64,000 bases of DNA, taken from contig NZ_JANKBZ010000015.1 in NCBI RefSeq assembly GCF_024623785.1, positions 1 through 64,000 of the forward strand. The letters are read 5' to 3'. The notes beneath the pieces are model-generated. The model did not search any database. It saw only the letters and a program-made list of their open reading frames with translations, and was not told the DNA's origin. Within the stretch, counting starts at the first letter, position 1, and every line of letters begins with the position of its first letter. Shown one piece after another: positions 7,986 to 59,619 of this stretch. The position numbers and the translations under genes were made by a program. Source of the DNA: Archangium lipolyticum (GTDB taxonomy: Bacteria; Myxococcota; Myxococcia; Myxococcales; Myxococcaceae).

Positions 7986-8006
7986 AGGCCACATCCGGAG
8001 CCAGCC

Positions 8007-8651
8007 ATGACCCAGCCCAAACGGATTCGTGCAGGAATGGTGGTGAAGAGCCGCGCTGGGGAGCCCCTCGGAAGGGTGCTCAGCGTGGATGACGAGGGTT
8101 TCGTCCTGGAGCGCCGGGTGGTCATCACCCGCGAGCACCGGGTGAGGCTCGACGAGGTCCACGAGTTGGAGGCCGACGGCGTGGTCATCCACCATGCCCG
8201 GACGCCCCCGCTCCACGCGGAGGCGAAGGACCTCACCGAGGTCTTCTGGTCCGCCCGGCGCGCACGCGACGAGCAGAAGCCCCTGGACGAACGGGAGACC
8301 CGGTGGAGCGGAGTGTCACAGCGCATCGTCGCGGTGACCGAGCACGCCGAGGCCTACCCCGTCCAGGTGGAGCGGGGCACCGTCAGCAATCCCCGCTATG
8401 TGCCGATGTCCGAGGAGCAGCTGCCCCTGTCCACCGCTTCAGGGCCAGACGAGGAGGAGCCACGCCCCCCGCGGAGCAAGGGTGCGACGCAGGGTGCCCC
8501 TCCACCGAGACCCTCGTCACGCCTGCCCTGGAATCGCGGGGTGCTGCGGCTGGCCGAGGGAATCGTGGCGCGCTACGCCGCCCGGCCGTTCATCGCCGCC
8601 ACCTCGCTGCTCGAGAGGCTGCGCGGCGCGTGGACCTTCGCGGAGCACTGA
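8007..8651 (+). CDS. DUF2171/PRC-barrel-like hypothetical protein
   Basis: In this 214-residue protein the first 60 residues form a beta-rich unit (IRAGMVVKSRAGEPLGRVLS, then FVLERRV, then LDEVHELEADGVVIHHA). It resembles the PRC-barrel/DUF2171 module found in stress-related and photosynthetic-reaction-centre-like proteins. The rest is charged, then Pro-rich, and ends in a basic amphipathic helix. There is no signal peptide. It lies 22 bp behind the small gene at 7776 and converges with the operon ending at 8658, leaving only 6 bp between stops. The function is unknown; the fold call is moderate. Confidence 0.7.
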   Translation: MTQPKRIRAGMVVKSRAGEPLGRVLSVDDEGFVLERRVVITREHRVRLDEVHELEADGVVIHHARTPPLHAEAKDLTEVFWSARRARDEQKPLDERETRWSGVSQRIVAVTEHAEAYPVQVERGTVSNPRYVPMSEEQLPLSTASGPDEEEPRPPRSKGATQGAPPPRPSSRLPWNRGVLRLAEGIVARYAARPFIAATSLLERLRGAWTFAEH

Positions 8652-8657
8652 GCGCCA

Positions 8658-9758
8658 TCAGCCCTCGGAGGCGGGGATCGGACGGCGTCCCACCGCCAGG
8701 TCCCTCAGCCCGCGCGCGCCGTTGAAGAAGAGGCGGATGTCCGACAGGCCCGCCGCACGGAGCATTCCCTCCATCTCCTCCGGCGTGAAGTTGTCGCCGC
8801 CCGTGCTGAGCAGCATGAACAGCGACAGGAGCGCGGGCAGCAGCGGCCCCCTCCGCTCGGGATGGAAGAGCGTCTCGCTGACGAGCAGCAGCCCGCCCGG
8901 ACGCAGCAGCGACACCGCCCGGGAGAGGATGCGCGCGCGCTCCTCCGCCACGAAGTCGCCAATCACTCCCGACAGCAGCAGGGCATCGGCCGGCTCCAGG
9001 ATGCTCGCCAGGTCCTCGCGCAGGTCCGCCACCGTGCAGCGGATGCGGCCGGTGAGCCCGGCGCGCGCGATGCGCTCGGAGGCGTAGGCCCGCGCGGGCG
9101 GCGTGTCGACGAGCTCGAGGGACAGGTGCGGCACCGCCTGGGCCAGCTCGAGGGCCACCTGCCCTCCCCCTCCCCCCAGGTCCACCAGCCGGTGAATCCC
9201 GGTGAAGTCCACCTGCTCGGCGATGAGCCGGCCGACGCCACGGCTCGCGATGTCCATGGCCCTCATGAGGAGCGCGTACTCGTCCGGGTGCCGGGACAGC
9301 TCCGTGTACGCCTCCTCCGCCCGGCGTGAGGGGTCGACGAACGGCCAGCGCTCGAACTGGGGCCGGCCACTGGCCACCGCCTCGCCCAGGTGCGCGAAGA
9401 GCGAGTCCACGTGACGGCGCTGGTGCTGGAGGAACGGCACGAGCGAGTCCTCCCCCTCCGTGGTGAGCACCGCCGCAGCCAGGGGCCCATTGCGGAAGCG
9501 CGGGCCCGCCTCCTGCTCGACGAGCCCGAGCGCCACGAGCGCCGTGAGGAGCCGCCTCGCCCCCACCCCGGAGACACCCGCCCGGGCCGCCAGCGCCTCG
9601 GCGTCGAGAGGACCCGCGGCCAGGTGGTCGAAGAGCCGCAGGTCCAGCGCCGCGCCGAGCACCGAGCCCAATATCGGAGCGCAGGAGAGGAGCTGAAGGG
9701 TGGCCGGCGTGCACGGCACCGGCTCGCCTCGAAAGCCGAGCGTCGCGTCTCCACTCAT
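8658..9758 (-). CDS. Family 2 O-methyltransferase-fold enzyme, catalytic His replaced
   Basis: This 366-residue protein has the two-part plan of small-molecule O-methyltransferases (caffeate/acetylserotonin OMT and anthracycline enzymes DnrK/RdmB). An N-terminal winged-helix dimerisation domain (about 20-100) precedes a Rossmann SAM domain with LVDLGGGGGQVALELA at 191-206. The position normally holding the catalytic His (LHDWxDE) reads VIGDFVAEE, Gly267-Asp268-Phe269, so ordinary His-assisted O-methylation is doubtful; N- or C-methylation or a non-methylating reaction is possible. It is the third gene of a coupled operon (ATGA overlap at 9755-9758) with the PLP enzyme and the prenyltransferase fusion, so it probably tailors the same product. 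Confidence 0.88.
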   Translation of the reverse strand: MSGDATLGFRGEPVPCTPATLQLLSCAPILGSVLGAALDLRLFDHLAAGPLDAEALAARAGVSGVGARRLLTALVALGLVEQEAGPRFRNGPLAAAVLTTEGEDSLVPFLQHQRRHVDSLFAHLGEAVASGRPQFERWPFVDPSRRAEEAYTELSRHPDEYALLMRAMDIASRGVGRLIAEQVDFTGIHRLVDLGGGGGQVALELAQAVPHLSLELVDTPPARAYASERIARAGLTGRIRCTVADLREDLASILEPADALLLSGVIGDFVAEERARILSRAVSLLRPGGLLLVSETLFHPERRGPLLPALLSLFMLLSTGGDNFTPEEMEGMLRAAGLSDIRLFFNGARGLRDLAVGRRPIPASEG

Positions 9759-10900
9759 CGCCGGGACAGTCGTGCGAGCTCGTCGATGACGCGATCGCAC
9801 TCCTCCTCCGTGTTGCACGGGTGGGGCGAGACACGGACTCCCGCCCCCGGCCGGGTGTCGATGTCGATGCCGAGCGCCGCCATCCACTCGACGATCGCCG
9901 CCCCGTCCTCCATGTCGAAACAGAGCATCCCGCCGCGCCGCTCGGGCTCGCGCGGCGTCTTCACCGGGAGCCCCGCGTCGTGCGCCCGGTCCATCATCCG
10001 CGTGGTGAGCACGACGCTGCGCTCCCTCAGCCGCTCCACGCCCGTCTCCAGCACGAAGCGCAGGCCCGCGCGCCCGGTGTAGATGGGCTCGATGGCGGGC
10101 GTCCCCTGCTGGAAGCGCGCGCTCCCCGGCGCGGGCTCGTACGTCTCCGCGAACCCCACCATCTCCCGGTGGCCGATCCACCCCGGGAAGGCCGGCTCGA
10201 GCCGCTCGGCCAGCGCGGGCCGCACGTACAGGAAGGCCAGCCCCAGACCGCCACCTCCCAGCCACTTGTGCGTGCCCCCCACCACGACGTCCGCGCCGAG
10301 CCGCCGCACGTCCACCGGCACCACGCCCACCGCCTGGTACGCGTCCAGCACCACGAGGGCCCCCGCGTCGTGCGCCGCCTTCACCACCGGCTCGATGTCC
10401 AGGAGCGCCCCGGTACGCGGCGATACCAGCGACAGCGCCACGATGGCCACCCGCTCGTCCAGGTGCCGCAGCACCTCCTCCGGCCGCAGCAACACCCCAT
10501 CCTCCGGCCGCAGCTCCTCGACGGAGAAGCCCCGGCGCGTCTGCGCGGACCACAGGTAGCGCGAGGAGTGGAAGTCGATGGCGCTATAAAGGATGCGGTC
10601 CCGCTCCGGACGCGGCGTCACCGCCGAGGCGATGGCCGCCTGTGCCGCCGTGACACTGTCCCGGAGTGCCACCGAGCCCGGCTCGGCCGCGAGCAACCGT
10701 TCGAGCAGCCGGGAGAACTCGCCCATGCGTTCGATCCACACCGGGAGGGAGCGGTTGCGCAACCCCAACGTCCGGGCGTACTCGAGCAGGTCCACGTACA
10801 TCTCGGAGGGCGTGGGGCCGAGGCACTGCGTGGCGAAGTACGTGCGCTCGGCGAACAACGGAAAGCGGGCGCGCAGCGCGGCGAAGTCCGGAGCGCTCAT
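9755..10900 (-). CDS. Class V PLP-dependent aminotransferase-family enzyme (kynureninase/desulfurase-like)
   Basis: The product is a 381-residue fold-type I PLP enzyme. The cofactor lysine is K212 in GGTHKWLGGG, and the Asp that pairs with the pyridine nitrogen is D186 in LDAYQAVG, with VPVDVRRLGADVVV between them. These are hallmarks of aminotransferase class V, which includes cysteine desulfurases, kynureninase and isopenicillin N epimerase. The precise reaction cannot be read from the motifs; no desulfurase active-site Cys loop is obvious. The ATG at 10900 overlaps the upstream stop as ATGA, and its own stop overlaps the next start the same way. Given a Trp-type prenyltransferase next door, an amino-acid-derived aromatic substrate is a reasonable inference. 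Confidence 0.88.
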   Translation of the reverse strand: MSAPDFAALRARFPLFAERTYFATQCLGPTPSEMYVDLLEYARTLGLRNRSLPVWIERMGEFSRLLERLLAAEPGSVALRDSVTAAQAAIASAVTPRPERDRILYSAIDFHSSRYLWSAQTRRGFSVEELRPEDGVLLRPEEVLRHLDERVAIVALSLVSPRTGALLDIEPVVKAAHDAGALVVLDAYQAVGVVPVDVRRLGADVVVGGTHKWLGGGGLGLAFLYVRPALAERLEPAFPGWIGHREMVGFAETYEPAPGSARFQQGTPAIEPIYTGRAGLRFVLETGVERLRERSVVLTTRMMDRAHDAGLPVKTPREPERRGGMLCFDMEDGAAIVEWMAALGIDIDTRPGAGVRVSPHPCNTEEECDRVIDELARLSRR

Positions 10901-12678
10901 GGGTAGCACGCACGGTACAGCGCGTCGAAGAAGGCACGCGACGCGGTGGCCACCGCCCTCGCGCCACGCCAGGCGGCCTCGCTCGCCGGACCCGTGGGAA
11001 TGAGCCGCGCGATGTCCATGGACTCGCTGGCGTGCTCCACCTCCAGGGTCTCGTGCAGGTGCAGCCACTCCAGCGCCGAGGGAGGAATCTCCTTCTGCCG
11101 GCGGAACTGGTCCGCGACGAACGTGTCCACCTGCTTGCCGTACACCTCGACCACCAGGCTCGCGCCCACCCCCTCGTAGGGCTCGGCGCTCACGTAGCAG
11201 CGCTCCAGCTCCGCGCCGAGCGCGTGGCCCGGCGCGAGCACCTCCTCCGTCTCCGGCGGCGCCCAGGGCGCGAGCACCTCGAACATCCGCTCGAACAGCC
11301 CCCGGTGGGCACGCGTGAAGTCGCCATTGCCCAGCTCGTCGTTGAGCTGCTTCGCCAGCACGCTGCGGATGCGCTCGTCCGGCGCCCGGGCGGTGAGCCA
11401 CGCCAGCCGGCGCGGGAACTCCCGGGTGATGCCCACGCGGAAGTTGGCCAGCAGGCGCGCCAGCACCTCCAGGCGCACCGGCTCGCGGTGCATCCGCGCG
11501 AAGAACGGGTGGTCCGCCACCGAGTGCGCCTCGAAGTGGTCGACGATCTCCGTCGCCGGCCGTGCCACCTCCACCGCGGGCGCCTCGCGCGACGGCTGCC
11601 GCATCATCCCGTAGGTCTCCGGTGAGAAGTAGACCGTCACCCGGGGCTTCCCCTGCCACCGCACCGCGGCATACGTGTGGATGCCCGTCCCCGCCTCCAA
11701 CGGACGGCGGGCCGAGGACTCCAGCGCCGCCAGGTACGGCCCGGTGGCCAGCTCCTGGCTCTGGAGGTAGCCGGTGATGCGCTGGCGGATCTCCCGGTCG
11801 TCACGCGCGTGGTGCGACACGGGGAAGTACACCGTCACGGCCTGGGGCCGCGCATCGGACGGGTCCGAGAAGCTCAAGCAGGTCACCGGACCCTTGCCGC
11901 CATAGGGACCCTCGCCGCCACCGGCCATCCGCCGGCAGAACTCGGTGACGACTCCCGGCTGGTGGTGGCGCCCCAGTGCGCACACCTCCTCGAGGAACGC
12001 CGCGGTCGCGCGGTGGTGGCGGAAGTAGAGCTTCGCCCGGGCGTCGGCACGCGGGGACAGGTCGAGCGCGAAGTAGACGGGCTCGTCCGCCCCCGCCTCG
12101 CGGCGCCCCATCACCTCGGCCACCGAGGACCAGGCCTGGTGAAAGCCAATGCGGTGCAGGGCCTCCTCCGTGAGCCGGGCCGCGTGTCCCGGGCCATGGG
12201 CCAGGAGGTTGAAGTACACCTTGAAGTCCACCGGGTGCCCCGGGCTGAACGCGGCCGAGTGCCAGGCGACGAACCGGCCCCGCGCGTCCTCGGGCATCAA
12301 CAGCCCTTCCAGCGCGCGCAGCCGCTCCAGGTGCAGGCCGTGGGTGCGCGCGAGCTCCTCGTGCAGACGCAGGCTCGCGGCGCGGTTGGCGCTCAGCGAG
12401 AACGGCGCGTCCATGGGCTCCACCAGCACGCGCAGCTGCGGCCCCTCGGCGTCGATGGCCACCGACAGCTCGAAGGGCGAGTGGTCGTCACACACGTCCG
12501 AGGGCCAGGGCGGAGCACGTCCCACGGGCAGCTCGCCCCAGCTCGAGGCCAGCGTCAGGAAGAGCGACCGCATCGCCTGGGTGGAGGGCTCGTCGAAGCC
12601 CATCGCCCTCGCGAGCGCCGTCAGCCGTTCACTCCCCGAGGCGATGAGCGTTCCAGCGAGAAGACCCTGCTCCCGCAT
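10897..12678 (-). CDS. DMATS-type prenyltransferase fused to a heme-oxygenase-like diiron oxidase domain
   Basis: This 593-residue protein has two parts. Residues 1 to about 360 show the ABBA fold of Trp dimethylallyltransferases. A candidate catalytic Glu is E70 in HSPFELSVAID. Repeated basic-x-Tyr strands would bind the diphosphate: FKVYFNLL at 152-159, KLYFRHH at 216-222, VTVYFPVSHH at 281-290 and RVTVYFSPETYG at 346-357. Residues of about 375-593 are all-helical, with the spacing of HO-like diiron oxidases (PqqC/TenA/CADD relatives): E448, H458, E511, then H542-x3-E546-x2-H549. The ATG at 12678 is set by a GAGGAGGAG ribosome site at 12683-12691. It leads a three-gene ATGA-coupled operon. 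No signal peptide; cytosolic. The predicted role is prenylation plus oxidation of an indole or other aromatic. Confidence 0.85.
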   Translation of the reverse strand: MREQGLLAGTLIASGSERLTALARAMGFDEPSTQAMRSLFLTLASSWGELPVGRAPPWPSDVCDDHSPFELSVAIDAEGPQLRVLVEPMDAPFSLSANRAASLRLHEELARTHGLHLERLRALEGLLMPEDARGRFVAWHSAAFSPGHPVDFKVYFNLLAHGPGHAARLTEEALHRIGFHQAWSSVAEVMGRREAGADEPVYFALDLSPRADARAKLYFRHHRATAAFLEEVCALGRHHQPGVVTEFCRRMAGGGEGPYGGKGPVTCLSFSDPSDARPQAVTVYFPVSHHARDDREIRQRITGYLQSQELATGPYLAALESSARRPLEAGTGIHTYAAVRWQGKPRVTVYFSPETYGMMRQPSREAPAVEVARPATEIVDHFEAHSVADHPFFARMHREPVRLEVLARLLANFRVGITREFPRRLAWLTARAPDERIRSVLAKQLNDELGNGDFTRAHRGLFERMFEVLAPWAPPETEEVLAPGHALGAELERCYVSAEPYEGVGASLVVEVYGKQVDTFVADQFRRQKEIPPSALEWLHLHETLEVEHASESMDIARLIPTGPASEAAWRGARAVATASRAFFDALYRACYP

Positions 12679-12701
12679 GTGACTCCTCCTCAAAAGAGTG
12701 A

Positions 12702-12740
12702 GGGAGGGCGTCGCGTTCCCAGCGGAACGTCGTCCCTCCC
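12702..12740 (-). promoter_or_regulatory. Leader hairpin, possible attenuator, before prenyltransferase operon
   Basis: On the minus strand, arms GGGAGGGACGACGTTCC and GGAACGCGACGCCCTCCC close over a 4-base loop with one small internal mismatch. The sequence after it is TCACTCTTTTGAGGAGG, so a short U run leads straight into the ribosome site. This could be a transcription attenuator or a structure that controls access to the ribosome site. Inference from sequence only. Confidence 0.45.
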
Positions 12741-12984
12741 CCCTCAGGTGACTCGATTTCTCGAAAAGTAAACGTTGGCTCGTGTGGCTGTCTATGAGCG
12801 GGGGTCGCACCACCGCAATCGCTCACACGCACCGTGAGAGCGTGACAAGGGGATGCACGAAAGCAACCAACGTCGCGCGTGGCTCACCACACACACGCAG
12901 CGGAATCCTCCCGCCCGGAGGTCAAGACAGACACCCCACGCGATGGGGTGAGAAGGGACCCGCCGGGCGCGGTCTCCACGAACG

Positions 12985-13007
12985 GGTCCGATGGTCGGAC
13001 CAGTTGG
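12985..13007. repeat. Palindromic repeat, copy 1
   Basis: Arms GGTCCGA and TCGGACC flank a TGG loop, followed by AGTTGG. The same 23 bases recur at 23896-23918. It lies 22 bp beyond the stop of the kinase gene and about 300 bp upstream of the prenyltransferase start. Confidence 0.55.
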
Positions 13008-13028
13008 CGCGAAGCGAGCCCGGAAGGC

Positions 13029-16000
13029 TCAGGCGCTCGCGGAGGCGGTGGCGGAAGCCAACACCACCGGAGCGGTCACCACGGCCGCACGGCGAGGCTG
13101 AAGCGCGCGCCGCAGCTTCGCCACCAGCACGTCCGGATTGACCGGGTACATGAGGACATCATCCGCGCCAGCATCCAGCCCGGCCTCCACCAGGCCGGGG
13201 TCCTCCGGAGGGGCCAGCACGAAGATGGGCAGCGAGGCCGTGTCCACCGAGGAGCGCAGCGAGCGCGTGAGCGCGGCGCCGTCCCCATCCGGCAGTTGGG
13301 AGGCCACCACCAATGCCTGACTGCCTTCCGCCAGCAACGTGCGGGCCCGCGCCGCGGAGTCGGCGAGCACCACCCGCACCCCGTCCGCCAGGAAGCGCGC
13401 CTGGAGGGCCGAGGCCCGCGCCGTGTTGGGCTCGGCGAGCACCACCGTGTGCGCGGCGCTCTCGCCCAGCACCAGCTCCATCACCTCCGCGGAGAGGGCC
13501 TCCAGGGCCACCGCGGGCAACCGGTTCTCGGTGCGCAGCTTGACGAGCGACTGCGACGCGGCCGAGGCCACCGGCGTGGCCGTGCCCGCCACCTCCAGCA
13601 GCGACACCGCCGCGGCCAGGGCCAGCGTGGCCCGGTGGGCGTTGTCGGCCAGCGGCGGAGCATTCCGGGTGCACGCGCCGATGAGCCCCGCCAGCTCGCC
13701 CGCGTCACGGCCGAGGATGGCGCGCACCGACTCGCACGAGGGCCGGGTGAAGCGCTCCTCCGACTCCTGGTAGGCCGCGAGCGCCAGGGCATAGGCCACC
13801 GCCGAGGCCCGCTCGGCCTCCGCGCGCCCCGCCCCCAGCCGCCGGGCCACCCGCCGCGCCAGCTTGGCGAGCGCCGCCCCCTGCACCCCCACCCCACCGA
13901 GCTCCGCCAGCGCCGCGTCCACCACGCGCGCGTGCAACCGCGCCGCGCGGCCGAGCGGACCGGCCTCGCCTCCAAGCGCCTCGGCCAGCGAGGGCAACAC
14001 GCGCACCTCCATCGAGGGCGCCACCGTCATCAGCCTCGCCACCAACGACGGCGCGTCCGGCACCGTGTCCGCGGCCACCAGTGCCACCTCGGTCCCCCCG
14101 AGGGCCACCGCCTTCTCCACGTCCGCGGCGCCGCTGCCGGAGGCCGCCACGCCCTGGCGCGTGAGCAGCCGCACCGCCGCCTCGCGCAACTCCTCGTCGT
14201 CCGACACCACCAACATGGTGCGCGCCAGCGAGGCCGGCGCGAGCGTCGGCGGAGGCCTCGGCGCGGCCACCGGCTCGGGCACGGGCGGTGGCGGCAGCGG
14301 CGGCGGCGCGGGGACGGCGGAGACCTCCTCGAAGGCGGACTCGTCCAGCAGACGCTCGCGCGTGCGGGTGTGCTTGTCGGCGTAGGGGGTGACTCCCACC
14401 TGCGTCTCCGAGCCCACCAGCGGCATCATGTTGGACCAGTCATCCATCTGGTCCGGATCGTCTCCCCGGTAGAAGCGGCCGATGGCGCGGCGGATGGCGC
14501 CCTCGGTGGCGTAGATGCCGCGCACGGGGCAGCCGGTGATGAACTTGAGCTCGTCCAGGCGCGCCAGATCGCGCGGCTCGCGCATGGCGCACACCAGCTC
14601 CTTGGACTGCTGGGCCACCGGCACCGCCTCGAGCCGCTCGGCCTTCTCCAGCGGCAGCAGCGGCAGCAGCCCCTTGGGCACCGGCATGGTGCGCAGCACC
14701 TTGTCCGAGACGAAGGCGATGCCCCCCTGCTCGCTGAGGGCGCGGACCACGTCCTCGTCGGTGAGGAGGCCCTCGGCCACGAGCAGCTCGCCGATGCGCC
14801 CGCCGGTGCGCTTCTGCCGCTCCAGCGCGCCCTTGAGCTGCGACTCCGACAGCTTGCCGGCCGCCACCAGCATCTCCCCCAGCTTGCGGCGCCCCGTGCG
14901 CATCACGCGCGTGGGCACCTGCATGGCGACCGAGGAGCCCACCGCGCTCATCGTCATCGAGCGGGGACTCCCGGCCAGCGGCACCTGCGGAATGGACGAG
15001 GGGCCCACCCCGCTCAGCGTCATCGCGCGGGCGCCGGGCGGCGGAGGCACCTGCATGGTGACGGAGGTGCCCGCGCGCGCCTCGGGCGGCGGGGGTGGAG
15101 GCTGCGTCCGGCCCATGTCCGCCACGCTGCGCATGGAGGGAATCGAGGGCGTGCCCGGGCGCGGGCCTCCGGGGAACGGTGGGCGCGAGCGCACCGAGGT
15201 GAGCGTCGGCGGCCGTTGCATCCCCGCGTCCGAGCCGAGGCGGATCTCCTCGCCCCGCACCTCGCCCGTGCCCTCCAGCGGCGAGCGGCGCTCGGGGAAG
15301 CAACGCGAGAAGAGCGCCGCCACGTCCTGCGGGCCCACGCGCAGCCGGTGGTCGAAGAGGAAGTTCTGCAGCGCGTCCGAGATGTCACGCGCCCGCTGGA
15401 AGCGCGCCGTGGGGTTCTCCGCCAGCGCCCGCGTGACGATGCTCCACAGCGCCTGCGGCACGCCCGGCAGCGGCGACAGTGCCTTCACGTCGAACTGGGC
15501 GATGTTGCGCAGCGTCTGGAAGTAGTCCGTCCCACCGAAGAGCTGCCTGCCGGCGAGCAGCTCGTACAGCATCAGCCCGATGAGGAAGAGGTCCGCGCGC
15601 TGGTCCACCTCGGCGCCCTTCACCTGCTCCGGCGCCAGGTAGCCCGCCTTGCCCTTCACCACCCCCACCTGCGTGCCGTTCTGCGCGTTGGCCGCCTTGG
15701 CGATGCCGAAGTCCGCCAGCTTCACCTCGCCGCTGCTGGCCACCATCACGTTGGACGGGTTCACGTCCCGGTGGATGATGTTGAGCGGCCGGCCCGCCGC
15801 GTCCGAGCGCCCGTGCGCGTACGCCAGTCCCTCCGTCACCTGCTGGACGATGAAACACACCTCGCGCAGCCCCAGCGGCACATGGTGGGACGCCGAGCCC
15901 CGCTGCACCGCCCGCAGGTTCTCCCCGTCCACGAACTCCATCACCATGTAGTACTGCCCGCTGATGGCCCCCAGGTCGAACACCTGCACCACGTTGGCGT

Positions 16001-16190
16001 GCTGCAGGCACACCGTCAGCTTCGCCTCGCGCAGGAACAGCTCCACGAACTCCCGGTCCTGCGCGAGCGAGGGGAGGATGCGCTTGACGGCCACCGGCTT
16101 CTCGAAGCCCTCGGCTCCGACCACCTTGGCCAGGAACACCTCCGCCATCCCGCCGGCTGCGAGCTTGCGGATGAGTCGGTATGTGGCCAT
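13029..16190 (-). CDS. Multidomain Ser/Thr kinase with MshEN/GspE-N module and pseudo-receivers
   Basis: This 1053-residue cytosolic protein begins with a kinase domain (about 4-280): GGMAEVF loop, K36, HRDVNPSN at 140-147, DFG at 160-162, APEQ. A Pro-rich linker leads to a GspE/MshE N-terminal-type domain (about 432-575; GEMLVAAGKL and GELLVAEGLLTDEDV repeats), a fold that binds c-di-GMP in MshE relatives. After a second Pro-rich linker come a receiver-like unit (about 657-735), a helical region (about 745-900) that may be a worn HD-type domain, and a second receiver-like unit (about 935-1035). In that last unit the phospho-Asp position reads VVASQLPDGDG, so it is probably not phosphorylated. 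The ATG at 16190 has a GGGAGGTG ribosome site. It is divergent from the FHA activator at 16472, a likely partner. Confidence 0.88.
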   Translation of the reverse strand: MATYRLIRKLAAGGMAEVFLAKVVGAEGFEKPVAVKRILPSLAQDREFVELFLREAKLTVCLQHANVVQVFDLGAISGQYYMVMEFVDGENLRAVQRGSASHHVPLGLREVCFIVQQVTEGLAYAHGRSDAAGRPLNIIHRDVNPSNVMVASSGEVKLADFGIAKAANAQNGTQVGVVKGKAGYLAPEQVKGAEVDQRADLFLIGLMLYELLAGRQLFGGTDYFQTLRNIAQFDVKALSPLPGVPQALWSIVTRALAENPTARFQRARDISDALQNFLFDHRLRVGPQDVAALFSRCFPERRSPLEGTGEVRGEEIRLGSDAGMQRPPTLTSVRSRPPFPGGPRPGTPSIPSMRSVADMGRTQPPPPPPEARAGTSVTMQVPPPPGARAMTLSGVGPSSIPQVPLAGSPRSMTMSAVGSSVAMQVPTRVMRTGRRKLGEMLVAAGKLSESQLKGALERQKRTGGRIGELLVAEGLLTDEDVVRALSEQGGIAFVSDKVLRTMPVPKGLLPLLPLEKAERLEAVPVAQQSKELVCAMREPRDLARLDELKFITGCPVRGIYATEGAIRRAIGRFYRGDDPDQMDDWSNMMPLVGSETQVGVTPYADKHTRTRERLLDESAFEEVSAVPAPPPLPPPPVPEPVAAPRPPPTLAPASLARTMLVVSDDEELREAAVRLLTRQGVAASGSGAADVEKAVALGGTEVALVAADTVPDAPSLVARLMTVAPSMEVRVLPSLAEALGGEAGPLGRAARLHARVVDAALAELGGVGVQGAALAKLARRVARRLGAGRAEAERASAVAYALALAAYQESEERFTRPSCESVRAILGRDAGELAGLIGACTRNAPPLADNAHRATLALAAAVSLLEVAGTATPVASAASQSLVKLRTENRLPAVALEALSAEVMELVLGESAAHTVVLAEPNTARASALQARFLADGVRVVLADSAARARTLLAEGSQALVVASQLPDGDGAALTRSLRSSVDTASLPIFVLAPPEDPGLVEAGLDAGADDVLMYPVNPDVLVAKLRRALQPRRAAVVTAPVVLASATASASA

Positions 16191-43139: not shown

Positions 43140-44300
43140 TTGGCAATCGTGAAGATGCAGACGGCCCGCACCACTCTGTCCGACCCGATCGCGGCCGCCG
43201 AGGACCTCCTCAAACAACTGGAAGGCGTGACACCGAAGCTCGTCACCCTCTTCGCCTCGCGGGACAGGGACCAACAGGCGCTCAACCGCGCGGTGCGTGA
43301 GCGGCTGCCCGCGGGCACCCGCCTGGTGGGCGCCACCACCAACGGCGAGCTGGACAACCAGGGCATCTACCGCGGCAACGTCGTGCTGGGCGCGCTGTAC
43401 GGCGACTTCGAGGTGGGCCTGGGCCTGGGCACCGGCCTCACCCTGGACGCGGTGGGCGCGGGCGCCATGGCCATGAAGCGCGCCGCGCAGGACCTGGGCG
43501 TGCGCCAGCAGGACATCGACTCGCGCAAGTTCGTCGGCCTCGTCATCGACGATGGCTTCCGTTACAAGAAGGAGGAGCTGCTGCTGGGCATCCTCGAGAA
43601 GAACCCCGCCCTCATCCTCGTGGGCGGCGGCGCTTCCGACCACGAGTTGGACCCCGCCAAGCAGTCCGCCCTGCTCCACGTGGACGGCGAGGTGGCCACC
43701 GACTGCGTGCTGGTGGCCCTCTTCAAGACGAACGCCCCCTGGGCCGCCCTGCGCTCGCACTGGTACGTGCCCACCGGCGAGCGGCTCGTCATCACCAAGG
43801 TGGACGAGAGCGCCCAGCGCGCCCTGGAGATCGACGGCAAGCCCGCCGCCCTGCGCTACTCGGAGCTGCTCGGCATCCCCGTGGAGGAGCTGGAGTACGG
43901 CAAGCCCCGCGGCTTCGCCGCCCAGCCCACCGCCCTCAAGGTGGGCCGCGAGTACTTCATCCGCTCCCCCTGGAAGGCCCTGCCCGACCACTCCATCCTC
44001 TTCGCCAACCTCCTGGAGGAGGGCACCGAGCTGGAGCTCATGAAGCTGGGCGACATGGCCGGCCTCACCCGCTCCTTCTTCCAGGACGAGCTGCCCCGCC
44101 GCGTCCAGAATCCCCAGGCCGCCCTCCTCTTCCACTGCGGCGGCCGCATGTACTATTCCCACGTGGTTGGAACCACGGCCCAACTGGCCGACACCTTGCG
44201 CCACGCACCCCCGGCGGCTGGAATGAACGTGAACTTCGAAATCTACTCGGGGTTCCACATCAACACGACGCTGACGGTTCTCGCGTTCGGGGGTAACTGA
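43140..44300 (+). CDS. FIST-domain sensor protein
   Basis: The product has 386 residues with FIST_N (VTLFASRDRDQQALNRAV, GATTNGELDNQG) and FIST_C (VGREYFIRSP, ALLFHCGGRMYY) covering the whole chain. There is no signal peptide or membrane helix. FIST modules are predicted small-ligand sensors that usually sit upstream of histidine kinases or diguanylate cyclases. Here the sensor is a separate protein and the hybrid kinase gene follows after 3 bases, so the two probably work as a complex. The start is taken as TTG at 43140 because GGAGG lies exactly 6 bases upstream; GTG 43149 is the alternative. Confidence 0.9.
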   Translation: MAIVKMQTARTTLSDPIAAAEDLLKQLEGVTPKLVTLFASRDRDQQALNRAVRERLPAGTRLVGATTNGELDNQGIYRGNVVLGALYGDFEVGLGLGTGLTLDAVGAGAMAMKRAAQDLGVRQQDIDSRKFVGLVIDDGFRYKKEELLLGILEKNPALILVGGGASDHELDPAKQSALLHVDGEVATDCVLVALFKTNAPWAALRSHWYVPTGERLVITKVDESAQRALEIDGKPAALRYSELLGIPVEELEYGKPRGFAAQPTALKVGREYFIRSPWKALPDHSILFANLLEEGTELELMKLGDMAGLTRSFFQDELPRRVQNPQAALLFHCGGRMYYSHVVGTTAQLADTLRHAPPAAGMNVNFEIYSGFHINTTLTVLAFGGN

Positions 44301-44303
44301 CCG

Positions 44304-47237
44304 ATGACCACCACACCGGCTCCCGCTGTGTCGGGCCAGGACACGCCCCGGCTGCTCCTCGCGCTGGGCGAGGGCGAGGCCACCCAGGTGCTGGAGGTGC
44401 TGCGGCGCGCGAACGTGGAGGTCTCCTCCGAGCGCGTGTCCTCCGCTGAGCAGCTGAAGGCGTCGCTCGAGAAACCGTGGGACGTCATCCTCTGCGCCGC
44501 GGAGGCGCCGGGGCTCGGCTTGCGCGAGGTGGCGCCGCTGCTGCGCGAGAAGGCCCCCGGGCGCCCCTTCATCGTCCTCTCCTCCCGCTTCGACGAGGAG
44601 GAGATGCGCGCAGCCATGGAGGAGGCCGGTGCCAGCAGCTACCTCCAGATGGATCGGCTGCCCATGCTGGTGCCGGTGGTGCGCCGCGAGCTCGAGCGCA
44701 TCATCGAGCGCCGCCAGCACCAGCAGGCCGAGGAGGAGCAGCAGCACTCGCGCTGGCTGCTGGAGAAGATCGTCGACAACCTCCCCTTCGTCCTCTTCGC
44801 CAAGGACGCCGGGGAGCGCAAGCTCCGGGTCGTCAACAAGACGCTGGCGGACATGTTCCAGATGTCCAAGGAGTGGCTGATCGGCAAGACGGACCGGGAC
44901 TACATGCCCCCGGAGATCGCCGAGTCCTTCATCGCCATCGACACGGAGATCATCACCACCAAGAAGATGAAGGTCTTCGAGGAGGTGGCCCGGGTGGGCA
45001 CCGAGGACCGCATCTTCGCCACCCGCAAGCTGCCGCTGCTGGATGACAACGGAGAGGCCCTCTACGTGCTGGGCATCACCGACGACGTCACCGAGCGCAA
45101 GGTGGCCGAGGAGAACCTGCGCAAGTCCCAGGCCGAGCTGCAGGAGGCCAACAAGCGCCTGGCGGAGAACCTGGAGGAGCTCAAGCGCAGCCGCGCCGTG
45201 TCCGCGCGCACCCTGGCCAGCTACCAGCAGCGCGCCCTGCAGATGGAGATCATCCGTCAGCAGAACGAGGACCTGGACCGGCTGGCCACGGAGCTGGCCA
45301 TCGCCAAGCGCAACGAGGAGGAGCGCGCGCGCGAGGCCGAGTCCTCCGCCCGCCTCAAGAGCGAGTTCCTCGCCAACTTCAGCCATGAAATCCGCACGCC
45401 GCTCAACGGCATCATCGGCTACTGCGACCTGCTGGCGCGCGAGGAGGGCAGCCGCCTGACGGCCCACGGCCGGCGCGACCTCAACGTGGTGAAGAAGAAC
45501 GCGCAGACGCTGCTGGCCCTCATCAACGACATCCTCGACCTGTCGAAGATCGAAGCGGGCCGCGCGGAGATCGTCGTCGAGCGCGTGGACATGCAGGAGC
45601 TGGGCGAGGACTGCACCTCCACCGTGAAGGAGTACCTCAAGGGCAAGGACGTCGAGCTCACCCTGCACATCGACGAGCGGGTGCAGTACGTGCGCACGGA
45701 CGCGCTGAAGCTGCGGCAAATCCTGCTCAACCTGCTGTCCAACGCGGCCAAGTTCACCGAGTCCGGCGAGGTGTCGCTCAGCGTGCGCGCGGAGGGCAAC
45801 GAGGCCGTCTTCACCGTGGAGGACACGGGCATCGGCATTCCGCCGGACCAGCTGCCCTTCATCTTCGAGAAGTTCCGCCAGGTGGACGGCTCCACCACGC
45901 GCAAGGTGGGCGGCACCGGGCTGGGGCTGGCCATCGTCCGGGAGCTGAGCAAGCTGCTGGGCGGCAACGTGTCCGTGCAGAGCACCCTGGGCCGCGGCAC
46001 CACCTTCACCGTGCGGCTGGCCGGCATCCTCGAGGGCGAGTCCCTGGGTGGCTCGCGCGAGCTGGACAGGCCCGTGGCCGTGCAGGACGTGGCCGCCTCG
46101 CTCGTGGCCGTGGCCCAGGGCGGCACCGTGCTCGTGGTGGATGACGACGTGCTCGTGCAGCAGCTCATCGCCGGGCAGCTCACCCCCGCCGGCTTCGAGG
46201 TGGTGACGGCCTCCGATGGCCTGGACGCGCTCAAGAAGGCCCGCGAGCTGCGCCCCCAGGCCATCGTCCTGGACATCTACCTGCCCCGCCTGGACGGCTG
46301 GAGCGTGCTGTCCACCCTCAAGAGCGAGCCGGACCTGGCCCGCATCCCCGTCATCATCATCTCCGTGGAGGAGCAGCGCGCGCGCGGCTTCTCCCTGGGC
46401 GCCTGCGAGTACCTCGTCAAGCCCATCGAGCCCGAGCACCTGGTGGACGTGGTGCGCCGCAGCATCGGCACCACCACCGGCGTGGGCGAGGTGCTGGTGG
46501 TGGACGACGACGCCTCCACCCGCGAGCTCGTCAGCCGCTCCCTGCGCCGCGCCGGCTTCTCCACCACCGAGGCCCACAGCGGCGAGGACGCCCTCCTCAA
46601 GGCGCGCGTCTCCCCGCCCACCCTCGTGGTGCTCGACTTGATGATGCCCAACCTGGACGGCTTCGAGGTGCTGCGCCGCCTGCGCGCCGAGAAGCTCAAC
46701 GTCCCGGTCGTCGTCCTCACCGGCAAGACGCTCTCGGGCGAGGAGCAATCCGTCCTACGCGACGGCTTCGCCGGCTTCGTCCAGAAGGGCGGCCACGCGC
46801 TCGAGGACGTCATCGGCCAGGCCAAGGGCCTGCTCCTCAAGCAGAGCGCCCAGCGCGCCGGCCGGCTGCCGCGCATCCTCTACGTCGAGGACAACCCGCA
46901 GAACCGCGACATCGTCCGGCGCTACCTCGGCGGTCAGTACGAGGTGCTGGAGGCCGAGGACGGGGAGCTGGGCGTGGAGCGCGCCACCCGTGACGCGCCG
47001 GACCTCATCCTGATGGACCTGTCCCTGCCGCGCGTGGACGGCTGGGAGGCCACCCGCCGCCTGCGCCAGCTGCCCGCCGCGGCCTCCATCCCCGTCATCG
47101 CCGTCACCGCCCACGCCGGGCGCGAGTACCAGGAGAAGGCCACGGCCGCCGGCTGCAACGCCTACCTCACCAAACCCCTGGACCGCGACCAACTGCTCGA
47201 TACCATCCGCAAGTATCTCGGGAGAAACCATGCCTGA
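44304..47237 (+). CDS. Hybrid histidine kinase with three receiver domains
   Basis: This is a 977-residue cytosolic protein. Its domains are a receiver-like unit at about 12-125 (phospho site not conserved: VILCAAEAPG); a PAS domain at about 150-270; a coiled coil at about 275-350; HisKA with NFSHEIRTPLNG (H361); an ATPase domain with LLNLLSNAAKF, DTGIGIP and GTGLGLAIV; and three receivers starting near 607, 728 and 855 (phospho sites in VLDIYLP, VLDLMMP, LMDLSLP). The single kinase core can feed several internal receivers or the next gene's product, whose start overlaps this gene by 8 bp. Sensing probably comes from the FIST protein just upstream and the PAS domain. Confidence 0.95.
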   Translation: MTTTPAPAVSGQDTPRLLLALGEGEATQVLEVLRRANVEVSSERVSSAEQLKASLEKPWDVILCAAEAPGLGLREVAPLLREKAPGRPFIVLSSRFDEEEMRAAMEEAGASSYLQMDRLPMLVPVVRRELERIIERRQHQQAEEEQQHSRWLLEKIVDNLPFVLFAKDAGERKLRVVNKTLADMFQMSKEWLIGKTDRDYMPPEIAESFIAIDTEIITTKKMKVFEEVARVGTEDRIFATRKLPLLDDNGEALYVLGITDDVTERKVAEENLRKSQAELQEANKRLAENLEELKRSRAVSARTLASYQQRALQMEIIRQQNEDLDRLATELAIAKRNEEERAREAESSARLKSEFLANFSHEIRTPLNGIIGYCDLLAREEGSRLTAHGRRDLNVVKKNAQTLLALINDILDLSKIEAGRAEIVVERVDMQELGEDCTSTVKEYLKGKDVELTLHIDERVQYVRTDALKLRQILLNLLSNAAKFTESGEVSLSVRAEGNEAVFTVEDTGIGIPPDQLPFIFEKFRQVDGSTTRKVGGTGLGLAIVRELSKLLGGNVSVQSTLGRGTTFTVRLAGILEGESLGGSRELDRPVAVQDVAASLVAVAQGGTVLVVDDDVLVQQLIAGQLTPAGFEVVTASDGLDALKKARELRPQAIVLDIYLPRLDGWSVLSTLKSEPDLARIPVIIISVEEQRARGFSLGACEYLVKPIEPEHLVDVVRRSIGTTTGVGEVLVVDDDASTRELVSRSLRRAGFSTTEAHSGEDALLKARVSPPTLVVLDLMMPNLDGFEVLRRLRAEKLNVPVVVLTGKTLSGEEQSVLRDGFAGFVQKGGHALEDVIGQAKGLLLKQSAQRAGRLPRILYVEDNPQNRDIVRRYLGGQYEVLEAEDGELGVERATRDAPDLILMDLSLPRVDGWEATRRLRQLPAAASIPVIAVTAHAGREYQEKATAAGCNAYLTKPLDRDQLLDTIRKYLGRNHA

Positions 47238-47637
47238 CGTCGCGGCCCCCAAGGTCCGCATCCTCGTGGTGGACGATGATCCGGATCAGCTGGATCTCGT
47301 CCGCCGCACCTTGAGCTCGCACGGCGGCTTCGAGGTCCAGACGCACAACTCCGCCCTGGGCGTGTCCAACCTGGTGCGCAACGGAGAGCCGGATCTCGTG
47401 CTGCTGGACGTGAACTTCCCCGCCCTCAAGGGCGACCAGGTCGTCAGCCTGGCCCGCCGCTATGCGCCGCAGAGCACGAAGTTCATCCTCTACTCGGCCT
47501 CGGACGAGTCCCGGCTGCGCGCCCTGGCCCTGGCCTCGGGCGCGGACGGCTACCTCTCCAAGAGTGTCCAGGGTGCCGAGCTCATCCAGAAGCTCACCGC
47601 CTTCCGCAAGAAGCAGGGCGGCACGCTGCTCGTCTGA
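47230..47637 (+). CDS. Stand-alone receiver (response regulator)
   Basis: This 135-residue single receiver has acidic pocket VVDDDPD near 13-19, phospho-Asp in LVLLDVNFP, and the switch Ser and Lys in LYSASDESR and YLSKSV. No output domain is present, so it acts by protein contact, like CheY or Spo0F. It overlaps the hybrid kinase gene by 8 bp. It closely resembles the product at 62673 (both have HNSALGVSNLVRN- or HRSSLGVSNLVRN-type stretches and ASGADGY[LI]SKSVQG), so the two are paralogues paired with different kinases. Confidence 0.93.
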   Translation: MPDVAAPKVRILVVDDDPDQLDLVRRTLSSHGGFEVQTHNSALGVSNLVRNGEPDLVLLDVNFPALKGDQVVSLARRYAPQSTKFILYSASDESRLRALALASGADGYLSKSVQGAELIQKLTAFRKKQGGTLLV

Positions 47638-55279: not shown

Positions 55280-57052
55280 ATGCACGTGCAGCCCCATTGC
55301 CTCCGCCAACACGGGTGGTGGCTTCCTCCGGCTCTGCTGCACCTGGTGGCCCTGCTGCTGCTGGCCGGGTGCACCTCCGTCACGCCTCGCCTGCTTCGGG
55401 GTGGGCCGCTGCCCGGCCTGAGTCACCGCTCCCTGGCACCTACGCCCTTCCCCAATACGAGCGCCCGACACGCTGTGGCGGGTACACCTCATTCCTCCTC
55501 CTTCGTGCCGGGCGTCGCGAGCACCACGGACGAGGACGAGGAGGAGGACGTTGAAGAGGAGGAGCCCGCACCGGGAGACGTAGCGGGCACACCCGGGCGG
55601 GCAGTCCGCCCGGCTGCTGGTGGGGATGAGCCGGTGGACGACTGGGGAGAGGGCTGGACGGGCTGGCCCGACGGCGTGGGCGATGGCCGCCCCCACACCG
55701 TGCCCATGAGCGTGGACTACTTCCAGGGCTTCCTCGCCCACGTGGGGGTGCCCGCCGACGCTCTGCCCGAGGACGGGCGCACCCTCTGGCCCGAGCAGGC
55801 CCTGCGACTGCTTCCGCACCTGCTCTCCACACCGGTGACATTGGGCAACTTCGCCCAGCGTCGCATGGCGGCCTGGCTGCTGCTGGAGGTGGCCACGAGC
55901 GAGCGGCCCGTGTCGCGCCAGGAGTTGCACGCGCGCATGGACCGCTTCCACCGCCTGCTGGTGCTGCGGCCCGACGGCTACCTGGTGCTGGCCGTCACGG
56001 GCGAGGCCAGACAGAAGGTGGGCGAGGTGAAGGTGGCCCAGGACGGCACGCTGCGCGCCGGCCGCTACGAGGTGGGCCCTTTCTACGCCATCGACGGCAA
56101 CCGTCTGTGGCTGGTGGATGCCGCGCTGGCGGTGCCACGCGGAGCGCTACCGCTCGGTGCCTATGAGCCGGATGACGGCGTGCTGCTGCCCGCGTTGGAG
56201 GGAGCCGCCCTGGCACTGGCGGACACGGTGGAGGGGCTCTACCGCGTCATCTTCCACCCCATCGAAACCGTGGAGGGCCTCGCCCGGTTGCCGGGCGCGG
56301 TGCGCGAGCTGGTGCGCAATGCCCCCGAATATTGGGAGTCCTTCCGGCACAAGCCCTCCGGCGAGCAGGTGCGCGGCGTGTCGCGCGTACTCACCGGAGT
56401 AGTGCTGATGGTGGGCACCGCCGGGGAGGGCGCGGTGCAGGCCGCCACGTGGGGAAGCCGGATGGGACGGCTCACCCTGCCCGTCTTCTCGCTGACGGGC
56501 GAGGGCGTGCTGGCGCTGCGGCTGGTGGCGGTTCCCGGCCGTGCCATCGCCGTGGCGGGCCAGGCGCTCAGCGCCACGTACGTGCTGCACATGGCCAGCA
56601 CGGGCGTGGCCGCGGCGGGCACTGGCTCCTGGACGCCCCCCGTGGGTGGTCCGGGCCAGTGGGTTCCCAAGAAAGAGGGCATGTCAGAGGACGCGCGCAA
56701 GTACCAATCACAGGTGACGGGAGCACCATCCGGCTGGGTGTACCGAATCTTCCTCGATGGCGAGAAAGCTGACTTCGACGGGTACGACCTCAAGACCGGT
56801 GTTCTGTTGGATGCCAAGGGCACCGGGTACGACAAGTGGTTCGACAAGGACTTCAAACACAAACAGTACTACCGGGGTGCCGATGATCTCGTGGAGCGGG
56901 CCCAGAAACAGCTCGAGTTCGCGCGGGGAGTGCCTATTCGATGGCACGTAGCAGAACCCAGAATGGTGGACATCATCAAGAAGCTCTTCGCGAATGCGAG
57001 AATCAACGGTATTGAAGTGGTCTACACGGCACCATTGCCTCGAGGCATGTGA
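55280..57052 (+). CDS. SitA-like lipoprotein toxin 1 with C-terminal Tox-REase-5-type nuclease
   Basis: The product has 590 residues. A lipoprotein signal ends LLLLAGC (Cys31). An acidic DEDEEEDVEEEE stretch and a long conserved region follow, with alternating hydrophobic segments (about 390-450). From residue 465 on the sequence differs from the paralogue at 57859. This C-terminal 126-residue domain has the nuclease core DFDGYD...LLDAKGTGYDK (D511-x-K513) and VPIRWHVAEP, matching restriction-endonuclease-fold toxin 5. The plan equals the SitA toxins of Myxococcus, which pass between kin by outer-membrane exchange. The ATG at 55280 has a GGGAGG site. Immunity gene 3 bases downstream. Confidence 0.85.
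   Translation: MHVQPHCLRQHGWWLPPALLHLVALLLLAGCTSVTPRLLRGGPLPGLSHRSLAPTPFPNTSARHAVAGTPHSSSFVPGVASTTDEDEEEDVEEEEPAPGDVAGTPGRAVRPAAGGDEPVDDWGEGWTGWPDGVGDGRPHTVPMSVDYFQGFLAHVGVPADALPEDGRTLWPEQALRLLPHLLSTPVTLGNFAQRRMAAWLLLEVATSERPVSRQELHARMDRFHRLLVLRPDGYLVLAVTGEARQKVGEVKVAQDGTLRAGRYEVGPFYAIDGNRLWLVDAALAVPRGALPLGAYEPDDGVLLPALEGAALALADTVEGLYRVIFHPIETVEGLARLPGAVRELVRNAPEYWESFRHKPSGEQVRGVSRVLTGVVLMVGTAGEGAVQAATWGSRMGRLTLPVFSLTGEGVLALRLVAVPGRAIAVAGQALSATYVLHMASTGVAAAGTGSWTPPVGGPGQWVPKKEGMSEDARKYQSQVTGAPSGWVYRIFLDGEKADFDGYDLKTGVLLDAKGTGYDKWFDKDFKHKQYYRGADDLVERAQKQLEFARGVPIRWHVAEPRMVDIIKKLFANARINGIEVVYTAPLPRGM
55287..56673 (+). repeat. Direct repeat A, copy 1 (toxin N-terminal region)
   Basis: About 1.39 kb recurs at 57860-59246 (offset 2573 bp). 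By eye and at protein level the two copies look identical, and identity stops sharply at the toxin-domain boundary. Confidence 0.85.
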
Positions 57053-57055
57053 TTC

Positions 57056-57784
57056 ATGAGGGAAACCTACGTTGCTGGAGCCTACTGGCCAGCTCGCGCG
57101 GAAACCGCCGAGCAGTGTGCCCGGCGCGCGGAGACCTTCTTCCGTCTGCTCTCGCGTTGTGACGCCAGCTATACGCGCTGGTTCGAGAAGGATTACTCGC
57201 TCGAGAAAGCGCTCCAGCTCCAGTTCGAGCCCACCTACGAAACCTTCCTGCGCTTCTTCGGGGAGAAGAAGTATCGGCGGGGAAAGACAGACAAGGGTGG
57301 ATTCAGCTTTGGAGCCTGGAATGGGGATGAGGAAGGCAGCAACATCATGCTCACCTGCGGCACCAGCTCCCGATATTTCCCCAACATATGCCTTCTCCAT
57401 CTGCCCTCGACGGATACTGAGGCGGGGCGGATACTTTCCGCGCCCGTGATGACAGAGGTGGTACGCGCCATGGTGTTGGCCTGGGAGCCAGACGATGGCG
57501 GTGTCTTCTCGGACGCCTACCAGGAATCCAGGAACGACCCCGTGGGGATCCCGCGCACGGGCTGGCTGATGTACCTCTCGCGCCGCCGGGGAGAGGTGCC
57601 CCCCCTGCCCGCGCCCGTGCGCGTCGAGCCCGTGGAGGACAAGGGCTCGCTCGTCATTCTCACCCCCGAGCGCTTCACCGTGGACGACCCGGCCCATGTC
57701 GCCCTGGCCGATGAAGTGCGCGCACTGCTCGACCGGGCCGGTCTGTTGAAGGAGCCCGGCGCCTACTCCTCCATCCCTTCGTAA
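57056..57784 (+). CDS. Imm52-type immunity protein 1
   Basis: This 242-residue cytosolic protein is encoded 3 bases after the toxin. Its N-terminal half (YVAGAYWPARAETAEQCARR, FLRFFGEKKY) is specific, and its C-terminal half (from about residue 165, RTGWLMYLSRRRG onward) is almost the same as in the second immunity protein. The N-terminal features fit Imm52, a family known to accompany Tox-REase-5 toxins. It should bind and block the nuclease of its own module. The conserved C-terminus probably shapes the fold while the variable half sets specificity. Confidence 0.82.
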   Translation: MRETYVAGAYWPARAETAEQCARRAETFFRLLSRCDASYTRWFEKDYSLEKALQLQFEPTYETFLRFFGEKKYRRGKTDKGGFSFGAWNGDEEGSNIMLTCGTSSRYFPNICLLHLPSTDTEAGRILSAPVMTEVVRAMVLAWEPDDGGVFSDAYQESRNDPVGIPRTGWLMYLSRRRGEVPPLPAPVRVEPVEDKGSLVILTPERFTVDDPAHVALADEVRALLDRAGLLKEPGAYSSIPS

Positions 57785-57858
57785 TCCACGTTCCCGGACG
57801 GTGCGGGGCACTCCATTCCTCACGGAGCACGCATCCCATGCTGACCAGGAGGTCGCCA
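57551..57858 (+). repeat. Direct repeat B, copy 1 (immunity C-terminus plus spacer)
   Basis: Closely matches 60115-60421 with scattered substitutions and one small indel. The spacer includes the AGGAGG ribosome site of the next toxin gene. Confidence 0.75.
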
Positions 57859-59604: not shown

Positions 59605-59619
59605 CCATGGGTCACACTC

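Follow-up and report, generated by a model that had tools for sequence, protein, structure and literature searches.

A DMATS prenyltransferase fused to a heme-oxygenase-like diiron oxidase in Archangium lipolyticum and the pairing of the two families in myxobacteria

Actinomycete gene clusters built on a DMATS (ABBA) aromatic prenyltransferase place it beside a second enzyme, which acts on the side chain of the prenyl-tryptophan; the excerpted text of Ozaki et al. 2013 (PMC3617294) divides these clusters into type A, with a tryptophanase, and type B, with a flavin monooxygenase (FMO). Among heme-oxygenase-like diiron oxidases (HDOs), more than 10,000 have been mapped, and the function of about a dozen has been validated, according to a 2026 review (PMC13108848, cited throughout from excerpts). 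BesC- and HrmI-type reactions act on lysine derivatives and CADD acts on its own tyrosine (PMC13108848), while AetD makes an indole nitrile from (bromo)tryptophan. In SznF, the HDO is joined to another catalytic domain, a feature by which the excerpted review sets it apart from other characterized HDOs (PMC13108848); its partner is a cupin, not a prenyltransferase. Here we describe an operon in a 64,000-nucleotide stretch of the Archangium lipolyticum genome (contig NZ_JANKBZ010000015.1, positions 1 to 64,000, hereafter the window), the first gene of which encodes a DMATS domain and an HDO domain in a single protein.

The operon differs from the actinomycete clusters in that a fused HDO, a class V pyridoxal 5'-phosphate (PLP) enzyme, and a methyltransferase accompany the DMATS domain; neither a tryptophanase nor an FMO was found among the two following genes (by Pfam) or the flanking genes called. 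We consider it probable that the fused HDO oxidizes prenyl-tryptophan made by the DMATS half, and that the product passes to the PLP enzyme and the methyltransferase.

A two-domain protein at the head of a three-gene operon

The operon and its immediate flanks comprise the following features. HDO types A, B, and D are our labels for the kinds of HDO that are paired with DMATS.

10897-12678, minus strand: gene 1, DMATS-HDO fusion, 593 amino acids (aa), ATG at 12678 (Pfam, AlphaFold model)
11599-12678, minus strand: DMATS (ABBA) aromatic prenyltransferase domain of gene 1, residues 1-360 (Pfam, fold, alignment)
11563-11598, minus strand: interdomain linker of gene 1, residues 361-372 (low model confidence)
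10900-11562, minus strand: HDO domain (type A) of gene 1, residues 373-593 (Pfam, HrmI fold, ligand alignment)
9755-10900, minus strand: gene 2, class V PLP enzyme, kynureninase-like, 381 aa (ATGA overlap with gene 1)
8658-9758, minus strand: gene 3, S-adenosylmethionine (SAM)-dependent methyltransferase of the Methyltransf_2 type, 366 aa (ATGA overlap with gene 2)
12683-12690 (12690 to 12683), minus strand: Shine-Dalgarno sequence AGGAGGAG ahead of the gene 1 ATG (read directly)
8037-8651: flanking convergent small gene, unassigned (own gene calls)
13029-16190: flanking large kinase-like gene (own gene calls)

An original prediction made from the sequence had named these three genes; its coordinates, strand, lengths, and ATGA overlaps were all correct, as were the letters at the seven residues that it singled out (E70, E448, H458, E511, H542, E546, and H549). 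It had further proposed that the N-terminal half is a DMATS prenyltransferase and the C-terminal half an HDO, and both assignments held. PF11991 (Trp_DMAT) matched residues 51-309 of gene 1 (62.2 bits; cut-off, 25). An AlphaFold2 model built from 15 sequences had a mean predicted local distance difference test score (pLDDT) of 88.8 and a predicted template modeling score of 0.65, with pLDDT below 50 at residues 360-372. Residues 8-369 of this model align with the 6-dimethylallyltryptophan synthase 6zrx (Z, 46.9; root mean square deviation [rmsd], 2.3; 356 residues), so that profile and fold agree for this half. The fold is common to 6zrx (from Micromonospora), CymD, PriB, and IptA, at Z scores of 44 to 47 and about 30% identity. 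The solved DMATS chains are of single-domain length, approximately 345 to 405 residues, whereas gene 1 has an HDO fused behind.

In a 17-row alignment of fusions, E70, R83, K153, Y155, R214, K216, Y218, and Y350 are invariant in the prenyltransferase half. In line with work on FgaPT2, E70 is taken as the general-base glutamate, and the basic and tyrosine residues as the diphosphate site. The best sequence and fold matches of this half are indole or tryptophan enzymes (6zrx, 6zrz, CymD, PriB, IptA, TleC, and MpnD). The acceptor could instead be another aromatic compound, such as tyrosine, histidine, or an indole metabolite, with the HDO acting on that: the fold list includes the histidine prenyltransferase 9iia, and tryptophan specificity is not readable from the model. 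We regard this as decidedly unlikely, given those top matches and the kinship of partner HDOs elsewhere to AetD, a tryptophan enzyme.

For the C-terminal half, PF14518 (Haem_oxygenas_2) matched residues 417-579 (58.1 bits; cut-off, 28.9), and model residues 370-593 align with HrmI 9nh9 (Z, 21.7; rmsd, 2.7; 219 residues) and with CtCADD (Z, 20.7). The six predicted metal ligands E448, H458, E511, H542, E546, and H549, a three-histidine/three-carboxylate (3H/3C) set, are invariant in 17 of 17 aligned type A fusions and align with the E/H/E/H/E/H of BesC. A chance motif was thus ruled out by Pfam, fold, and ligand conservation. Fold and 3H/3C ligands are shared with BesC, CtCADD, and HrmI, the chains of which are without a prenyltransferase domain; HrmI is the best match by fold and BesC the best by sequence profile (BesC 7twa, E 9.3e-7; CADD, E 1.7e-4; HrmI, E 0.0055). 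An identification as AetD found no support: AetD was not among the seven chains matched by the profile at E values up to 0.5. AetD was likewise not among the best 50 fold matches of the gene 1 model, which is evidence in neither direction. That the HDO domain is a structural or docking part without catalysis is very improbable in view of the complete and invariant ligand set of the window protein, although the ligand set is incomplete or missing in 12 fused HDO-like domains elsewhere.

A frame or assembly artefact was ruled out by recurrence. A second Archangium genome (G003) carries the fusion with the same two downstream genes, its gene 1 ortholog being 93% identical, and Polyangium and other myxobacteria also have fusions of this type. 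Within the genus, nevertheless, the operon varies. The fusion occurs in two of the six Archangium genomes searched, the window's own (G000) and G003; in G004, the two genes that flank the operon lie 76 bases apart, an empty site (L218:6966-7043, compared with window 8651-13029), and G001, G002, and G005 have different genes on the operon side of the small flanking gene. Foreign DNA was not indicated by composition, since the GC fraction at 8001-14000 (0.725 to 0.730) lies inside the window range (0.659 to 0.737). Between 8500 and 13100, a promoter pattern search found none, and two terminator-like sites are within shuffle expectation (mean, 1.2; standard deviation, 1.6).

DMATS-HDO pairing across myxobacterial genomes

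To place the fusion in context, DMATS loci (L numbers) were taken from one scan of named loci (57) and from PF11991 searches of genomes, which gave matches in 9 of 195 genomes of the window's phylum, 34 of 289 of the class of a Polyangium, 8 of 396 of the phylum of a Lentzea (actinomycetes), and 1 of 292 of the phylum of a Nostoc. After the duplicates L152, L163, L181, and L034 were dropped, the myxobacterial set consisted of 59 loci, the window and 58 others, with near-identical loci from different genomes kept. Genes were called with a simple custom script rather than a trained gene finder, and HDO ligand completeness was scored by alignment columns with profiles made in this analysis.

Other fusions of DMATS with an HO-like domain, for which the original prediction had suggested a search, proved frequent and occur in both domain orders. 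A fused HDO-like domain is present at 36 of the 59 loci, C-terminal at 29 (23 type A, 3 type B, and 3 type D) and N-terminal at 7 (6 type B and 1 type D). An HDO with all its ligands, either fused or at most 6 kb away, was found at 40 loci, 17 with type A and 23 with type B or D: it is fused at 23 (17 type A, 3 type B, and 3 type D), separate at 12 (6 type B and 6 type D), and at the remaining 5 it is a separate type B beside a fused ligand-poor domain. L036 (Minicystis) was counted as without an HDO, its next gene matching Haem_oxygenas_2 weakly (22.4 bits; cut-off, 28.9). On a phylogeny of the DMATS domains, at least 17 changes of architecture are needed. Because the two families are fused in both orders, adjoin as separate genes, and change architecture repeatedly, we interpret them as one functional partnership.

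Types B and D are relatives of AetD. A type B profile (11 rows) matched AetD at E 1.3e-67, and a type D profile (8 rows) matched it at E 3.4e-20. The AetD iron ligands D76, H79, E140, H172, E176, and H179, as given in the excerpted text of PMC10654658, fall on type B columns with D/E, H, E, H, E, and H, except in the six N-terminally fused type B domains. AetD relatives are thus the DMATS partners at 23 of the 40 loci with an intact HDO, whereas the window HDO belongs to another HDO branch. The window's own genome contains a second, different fusion, of DMATS with an AetD-like HDO (608 aa; L003:7835-9661, contig C7), which has a counterpart in G003 (L027).

The ligands are partly or wholly absent from 12 fused HDO-like domains (L030, L031, L037, L039, L040, L091, L143, L144 [10601-12505], L161, L162, L164, and L038); the fused domain of L154, cut by a contig end, is counted among the 36 fusions and not among these. 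An intact HDO gene lies within 6 kb of five of the 12, and a tryptophanase accompanies 3, on which basis we propose that a ligand-poor domain may dock an active enzyme. L037, with the order HDO-DMATS, gave a weak model (pLDDT, 69.2; three sequences), and its fold list covered only the DMATS half; the HO-like assignment of its N-terminal half comes from sequence similarity to the free-standing HDO at L031 (E 2.1e-28).

Tryptophanase, the partner known from actinomycetes, was found within 6 kb at none of the 40 loci with an intact HDO, compared with 5 of the 19 without (Fisher p 0.0023). At L146 and L177 no HDO was detected, and at L037, L091, and L161 the fused HDO is ligand-poor. When ten loci near the end of the examined stretch were set aside, 49 remained, 37 with an intact HDO and no tryptophanase and 12 without an intact HDO, 4 of these with tryptophanase. 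L091 is one of the ten; in a longer stretch, its tryptophanase was confirmed and no further HDO appeared. In 200 pairings drawn on the tree, tryptophanase never went the same way as HDO. PF01212 confirmed the tryptophanase in L146, L177, L044, L035, and L081, and the others were called by similarity to the L146 gene.

Among 44 actinobacterial DMATS loci, taken from the scan of named loci, tryptophanase is present in at least 21, and no HDO was detected with the profiles derived from myxobacterial HDOs; both counts are lower bounds, because of the origin of the profiles and because some loci are short. A myxobacterial HDO-type DMATS cluster would accordingly form a third type beside the tryptophanase and FMO types. 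In Streptomyces ipomoeae, one 897-aa frame joins DMATS to a tryptophanase-family (PF01212) domain (L081:6735-9425), a parallel to the DMATS-HDO fusions. Styrene-monooxygenase-type flavoproteins occur with DMATS and an AetD-like HDO in G053 and G018 (L025:15114-16502 and L031:12401-13789; Smoa_sbd in L031) and with DMATS and tryptophanase at L037:12612-14189 and L219:12231-13772.

We found no description of DMATS-HDO pairing in PubMed Central, most subscription papers being outside the search, and the original claim that no described pathway has this fusion stands to that extent. In PubMed Central, the terms heme oxygenase-like and DMATS never occurred together, nor did DMATS, myxobacteria, prenyltransferase, and indole; AetD and prenyltransferase occurred together in one paper, a cyanotoxin review. 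The words "prenyl" and "fusion" are absent from the excerpts of the HDO review (PMC13108848), as are "DMATS" and "prenyl," by word search, from a 2025 survey of conserved myxobacterial clusters.

Downstream genes and the predicted pathway

Gene 2 was expected to be a class V PLP enzyme, and the profile evidence bears this out. It matched PF00266 (124.3 bits) and PF22580 (KYNU_C; 48.3 bits; cut-off, 27), and its best solved structure is kynureninase 1qz9 (E 3.3e-35). K212, D186, and R356 are kept in 15 of 15 homologues; we take them to be the PLP lysine, the cofactor aspartate, and a carboxylate-binding arginine, respectively. The D-x-D-x-R...R end is conserved in the same proportion (15/15). 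The residue before K212 is His in the window and His, Tyr, Gln, or Val in the family, while solved kynureninases have Tyr. Gene 2 scored 92.1 bits against the kynureninase equivalog TIGR01814 (cut-off, 246.4), and its assignment as a plain kynureninase or cysteine desulfurase was rejected, matches being below the cut-offs among the best 25 of 56 matched NCBIfam models.

Gene 3, predicted to be an O-methyltransferase, has the expected fold, as judged by matches to PF00891 (89.3 bits; cut-off, 22.3) and PF08100 (48.4 bits), a best solved structure in hydroxyindole O-methyltransferase 4a6d (E 1.1e-30), and a SAM motif that reads DLGGGGG. Its methyl transfer to oxygen is putative. The usual Methyltransf_2 motif has a catalytic His before D-W/F; gene 3 has VIGDF at this position, and His is absent from 9 of 9 aligned homologues.

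Of the 17 intact type A fusions, 15 have a homologue of gene 2 within 6 kb, and the only other homologue among the 59 loci accompanies a DMATS gene that adjoins an intact type A fusion in G478. The three-gene order, for which the original prediction had likewise suggested a search, is found in other myxobacterial genomes: besides the window, fusion, PLP gene, and methyltransferase gene follow one another in G003, G388, G340, G465, G413, and at the second DMATS of G478 contig C143. In G419, the PLP and methyltransferase genes are convergent beside the fusion. Seven type A loci have the PLP gene with no methyltransferase detected (Polyangium sp. 15x6, L155, L156, L160, L174, L178, and L179), L033 (a Myxococcaceae metagenome-assembled genome) has fusion and methyltransferase without the PLP gene, and G040 has neither, with a FAD (flavin adenine dinucleotide) oxidase and a P450-like gene instead. 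The shared gene order supports, at the level of sequence, a single pathway.

In the pathway that we favor, the N-terminal domain would transfer a dimethylallyl group to the tryptophan ring; fold and conserved residues point to this reaction, and substrate and ring position are predictions. The C-terminal HDO, with two irons and O2, would oxidize the same prenyl-tryptophan, a role suggested by fold, ligands, and the repeated pairing. The oxidized product would pass to the kynureninase-like enzyme of gene 2, which keeps the carboxylate-binding arginine, and then to the methyltransferase of gene 3. The product of the operon is predicted to be a small prenylated, oxidized, and possibly methylated amino-acid derivative. 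The operon would represent one branch of a wider scheme, by which myxobacteria put an HDO where actinomycetes have tryptophanase or FMO beside DMATS. In the branch with AetD relatives, the HDO would most likely trim or convert the tryptophan side chain, as the indiacens (see below) would need; in the window branch, a BesC/CADD-like HDO would yield a product with its amino acid moiety retained, which goes to a PLP lyase. The type A product is suggested to be still an amino acid because the PLP gene with the carboxylate arginine tracks type A and not the AetD-like loci; this retained amino acid would be the main expected difference between the branches, and the exact reaction of the window HDO is a proposal.

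Two other courses for the HDO step deserve consideration. The HDO could remove or shorten the tryptophan side chain, to a nitrile as AetD does, to skatole as SktA does, or to indole as tryptophanase does, with genes 2 and 3 acting later or separately. Consistent with this, the other DMATS-paired HDOs are AetD relatives, tryptophanase was seen only where an intact HDO is missing, and BesC, the nearest solved relative by sequence, cleaves an amino-acid C-C bond (PMC13108848). The arginine-bearing PLP gene, present at 15 of 17 type A loci and not at AetD-like loci, speaks against it, and we hold side-chain removal to be a possible but somewhat unlikely course. The HDO could also open the indole ring of prenyl-tryptophan, in a non-heme step resembling that of tryptophan dioxygenase, in which case gene 2 would cut a prenyl-kynurenine to a prenylated anthranilate and gene 3 would methylate it. 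The kynureninase structure as nearest relative of gene 2, a KYNU_C score above the cut-off, the conserved D-x-D-x-R...R end, and the tracking of gene 2 with type A HDOs would all fit. On the other side are the distance of gene 2 from the equivalog cut-off, the variable residue at the position of the kynureninase Tyr, and the HDO review, which in its excerpts names no such reaction (PMC13108848), leaving ring opening unlikely. If true, the operon would parallel the kynurenine pathway in an all-in-one, non-heme form. Improbable, too, is the joint proposal that the fusion prenylates tryptophan and opens its indole ring by diiron chemistry, that gene 2 yields a prenylated anthranilate, that HDOs are the usual second enzyme of myxobacterial DMATS pathways, and that ligand-poor domains dock an active HDO.

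Several observations weigh against oxidation of prenyl-tryptophan by the fused HDO as the general explanation, which we nonetheless prefer. All functions were assigned from sequence, model, and genome context, so that activity is a prediction for every member. The NCBIfam DMATS subfamily TIGR03429 scored below its curated cut-off (131.7 versus 163.85 bits). The fusion is absent from four of the six Archangium genomes searched, 23 of the 59 loci are without a fusion, 19 lack an intact HDO at up to 6 kb (7 of these near the end of the examined stretch), and a homologue of gene 2 is missing at 2 of the 17 intact type A fusions. Many forks of the DMATS tree are weak, with 23 of 69 inner branches open. 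L025, a close relative of the window DMATS (clade of four; SH-aLRT branch support, 100), is not part of a fusion and has an AetD-like HDO at a distance of 4.5 kb. Types A and B are distant (hhalign probability, 1.8%), and the AetD analogy is therefore not directly transferable to the window HDO. The Fisher p value of 0.0023 for tryptophanase exclusion, calculated on all 59 loci, ignores descent, and the well-supported branches of the tree allow five independent comparisons, a number too small to test that exclusion.

If the proposed oxidation is correct, it would constitute a third way of handling prenyl-tryptophan beside the two actinomycete ways, and it would couple two enzyme classes for which no joint description was found in PubMed Central. 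Genome context would predict a directly assayable substrate, prenyl-tryptophan, for a whole set of HDOs, and the fusions would be ready-made two-step biocatalysts.

Candidate indiacen clusters and other neighboring genes

Indiacens A and B of Sandaracinus are myxobacterial prenyl indoles from a genus other than that of the window. Sandaracinus amylolyticus and S. defensii MSr10575 are reported as producers; our genomes G354 and G392, respectively, fit these two strains, an identification that we make tentatively. Each has one PF11991 match, in the same kind of cluster:

L143:5410-13208 and L162:5622-13459: candidate indiacen cluster, DMATS with ligand-poor HDO, intact AetD-like HDO, FAD oxidase, P450, and transporter-like gene

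The FAD oxidase is of the cytokinin-dehydrogenase type. It and the P450 were checked with Pfam in G354, and the transporter was called by eye. The AetD-like HDO, FAD oxidase, and P450 of this cluster contrast with the PLP enzyme and methyltransferase of the window. According to the excerpted text of PMC4660955, indiacen B was synthesized from 4-iodoindole and bears a chlorinated diene side chain; because of this starting material, its C3 carries no side chain. Its biosynthesis must include prenylation, loss of the side chain of tryptophan, desaturation of the prenyl group, and chlorination; the DMATS, HDO, and FAD oxidase of the cluster are candidates for the first three steps. Loss of the tryptophan side chain in indiacens thereby becomes a testable question.

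Directly upstream of the fusion operon at two loci (L148:7575-11198 and L165:9247-12853) are genes for a FIST protein, a histidine-kinase-like protein, and a small response regulator; the same trio lies two genes from the operon in L167:3148-6763. A similar trio is present in the window at 43140-47637, approximately 30 kb from the operon. Pfam was run on the window FIST and kinase proteins and on two L148 genes.

Elsewhere in the window, at 55280-60348, is a tandem repeated pair of genes for Tox-REase-5 toxin-fold and Imm52 immunity proteins:

55280-57052 and 57056-57784: first Tox-REase-5/Imm52 pair
58078-59604 and 59620-60348: second Tox-REase-5/Imm52 pair

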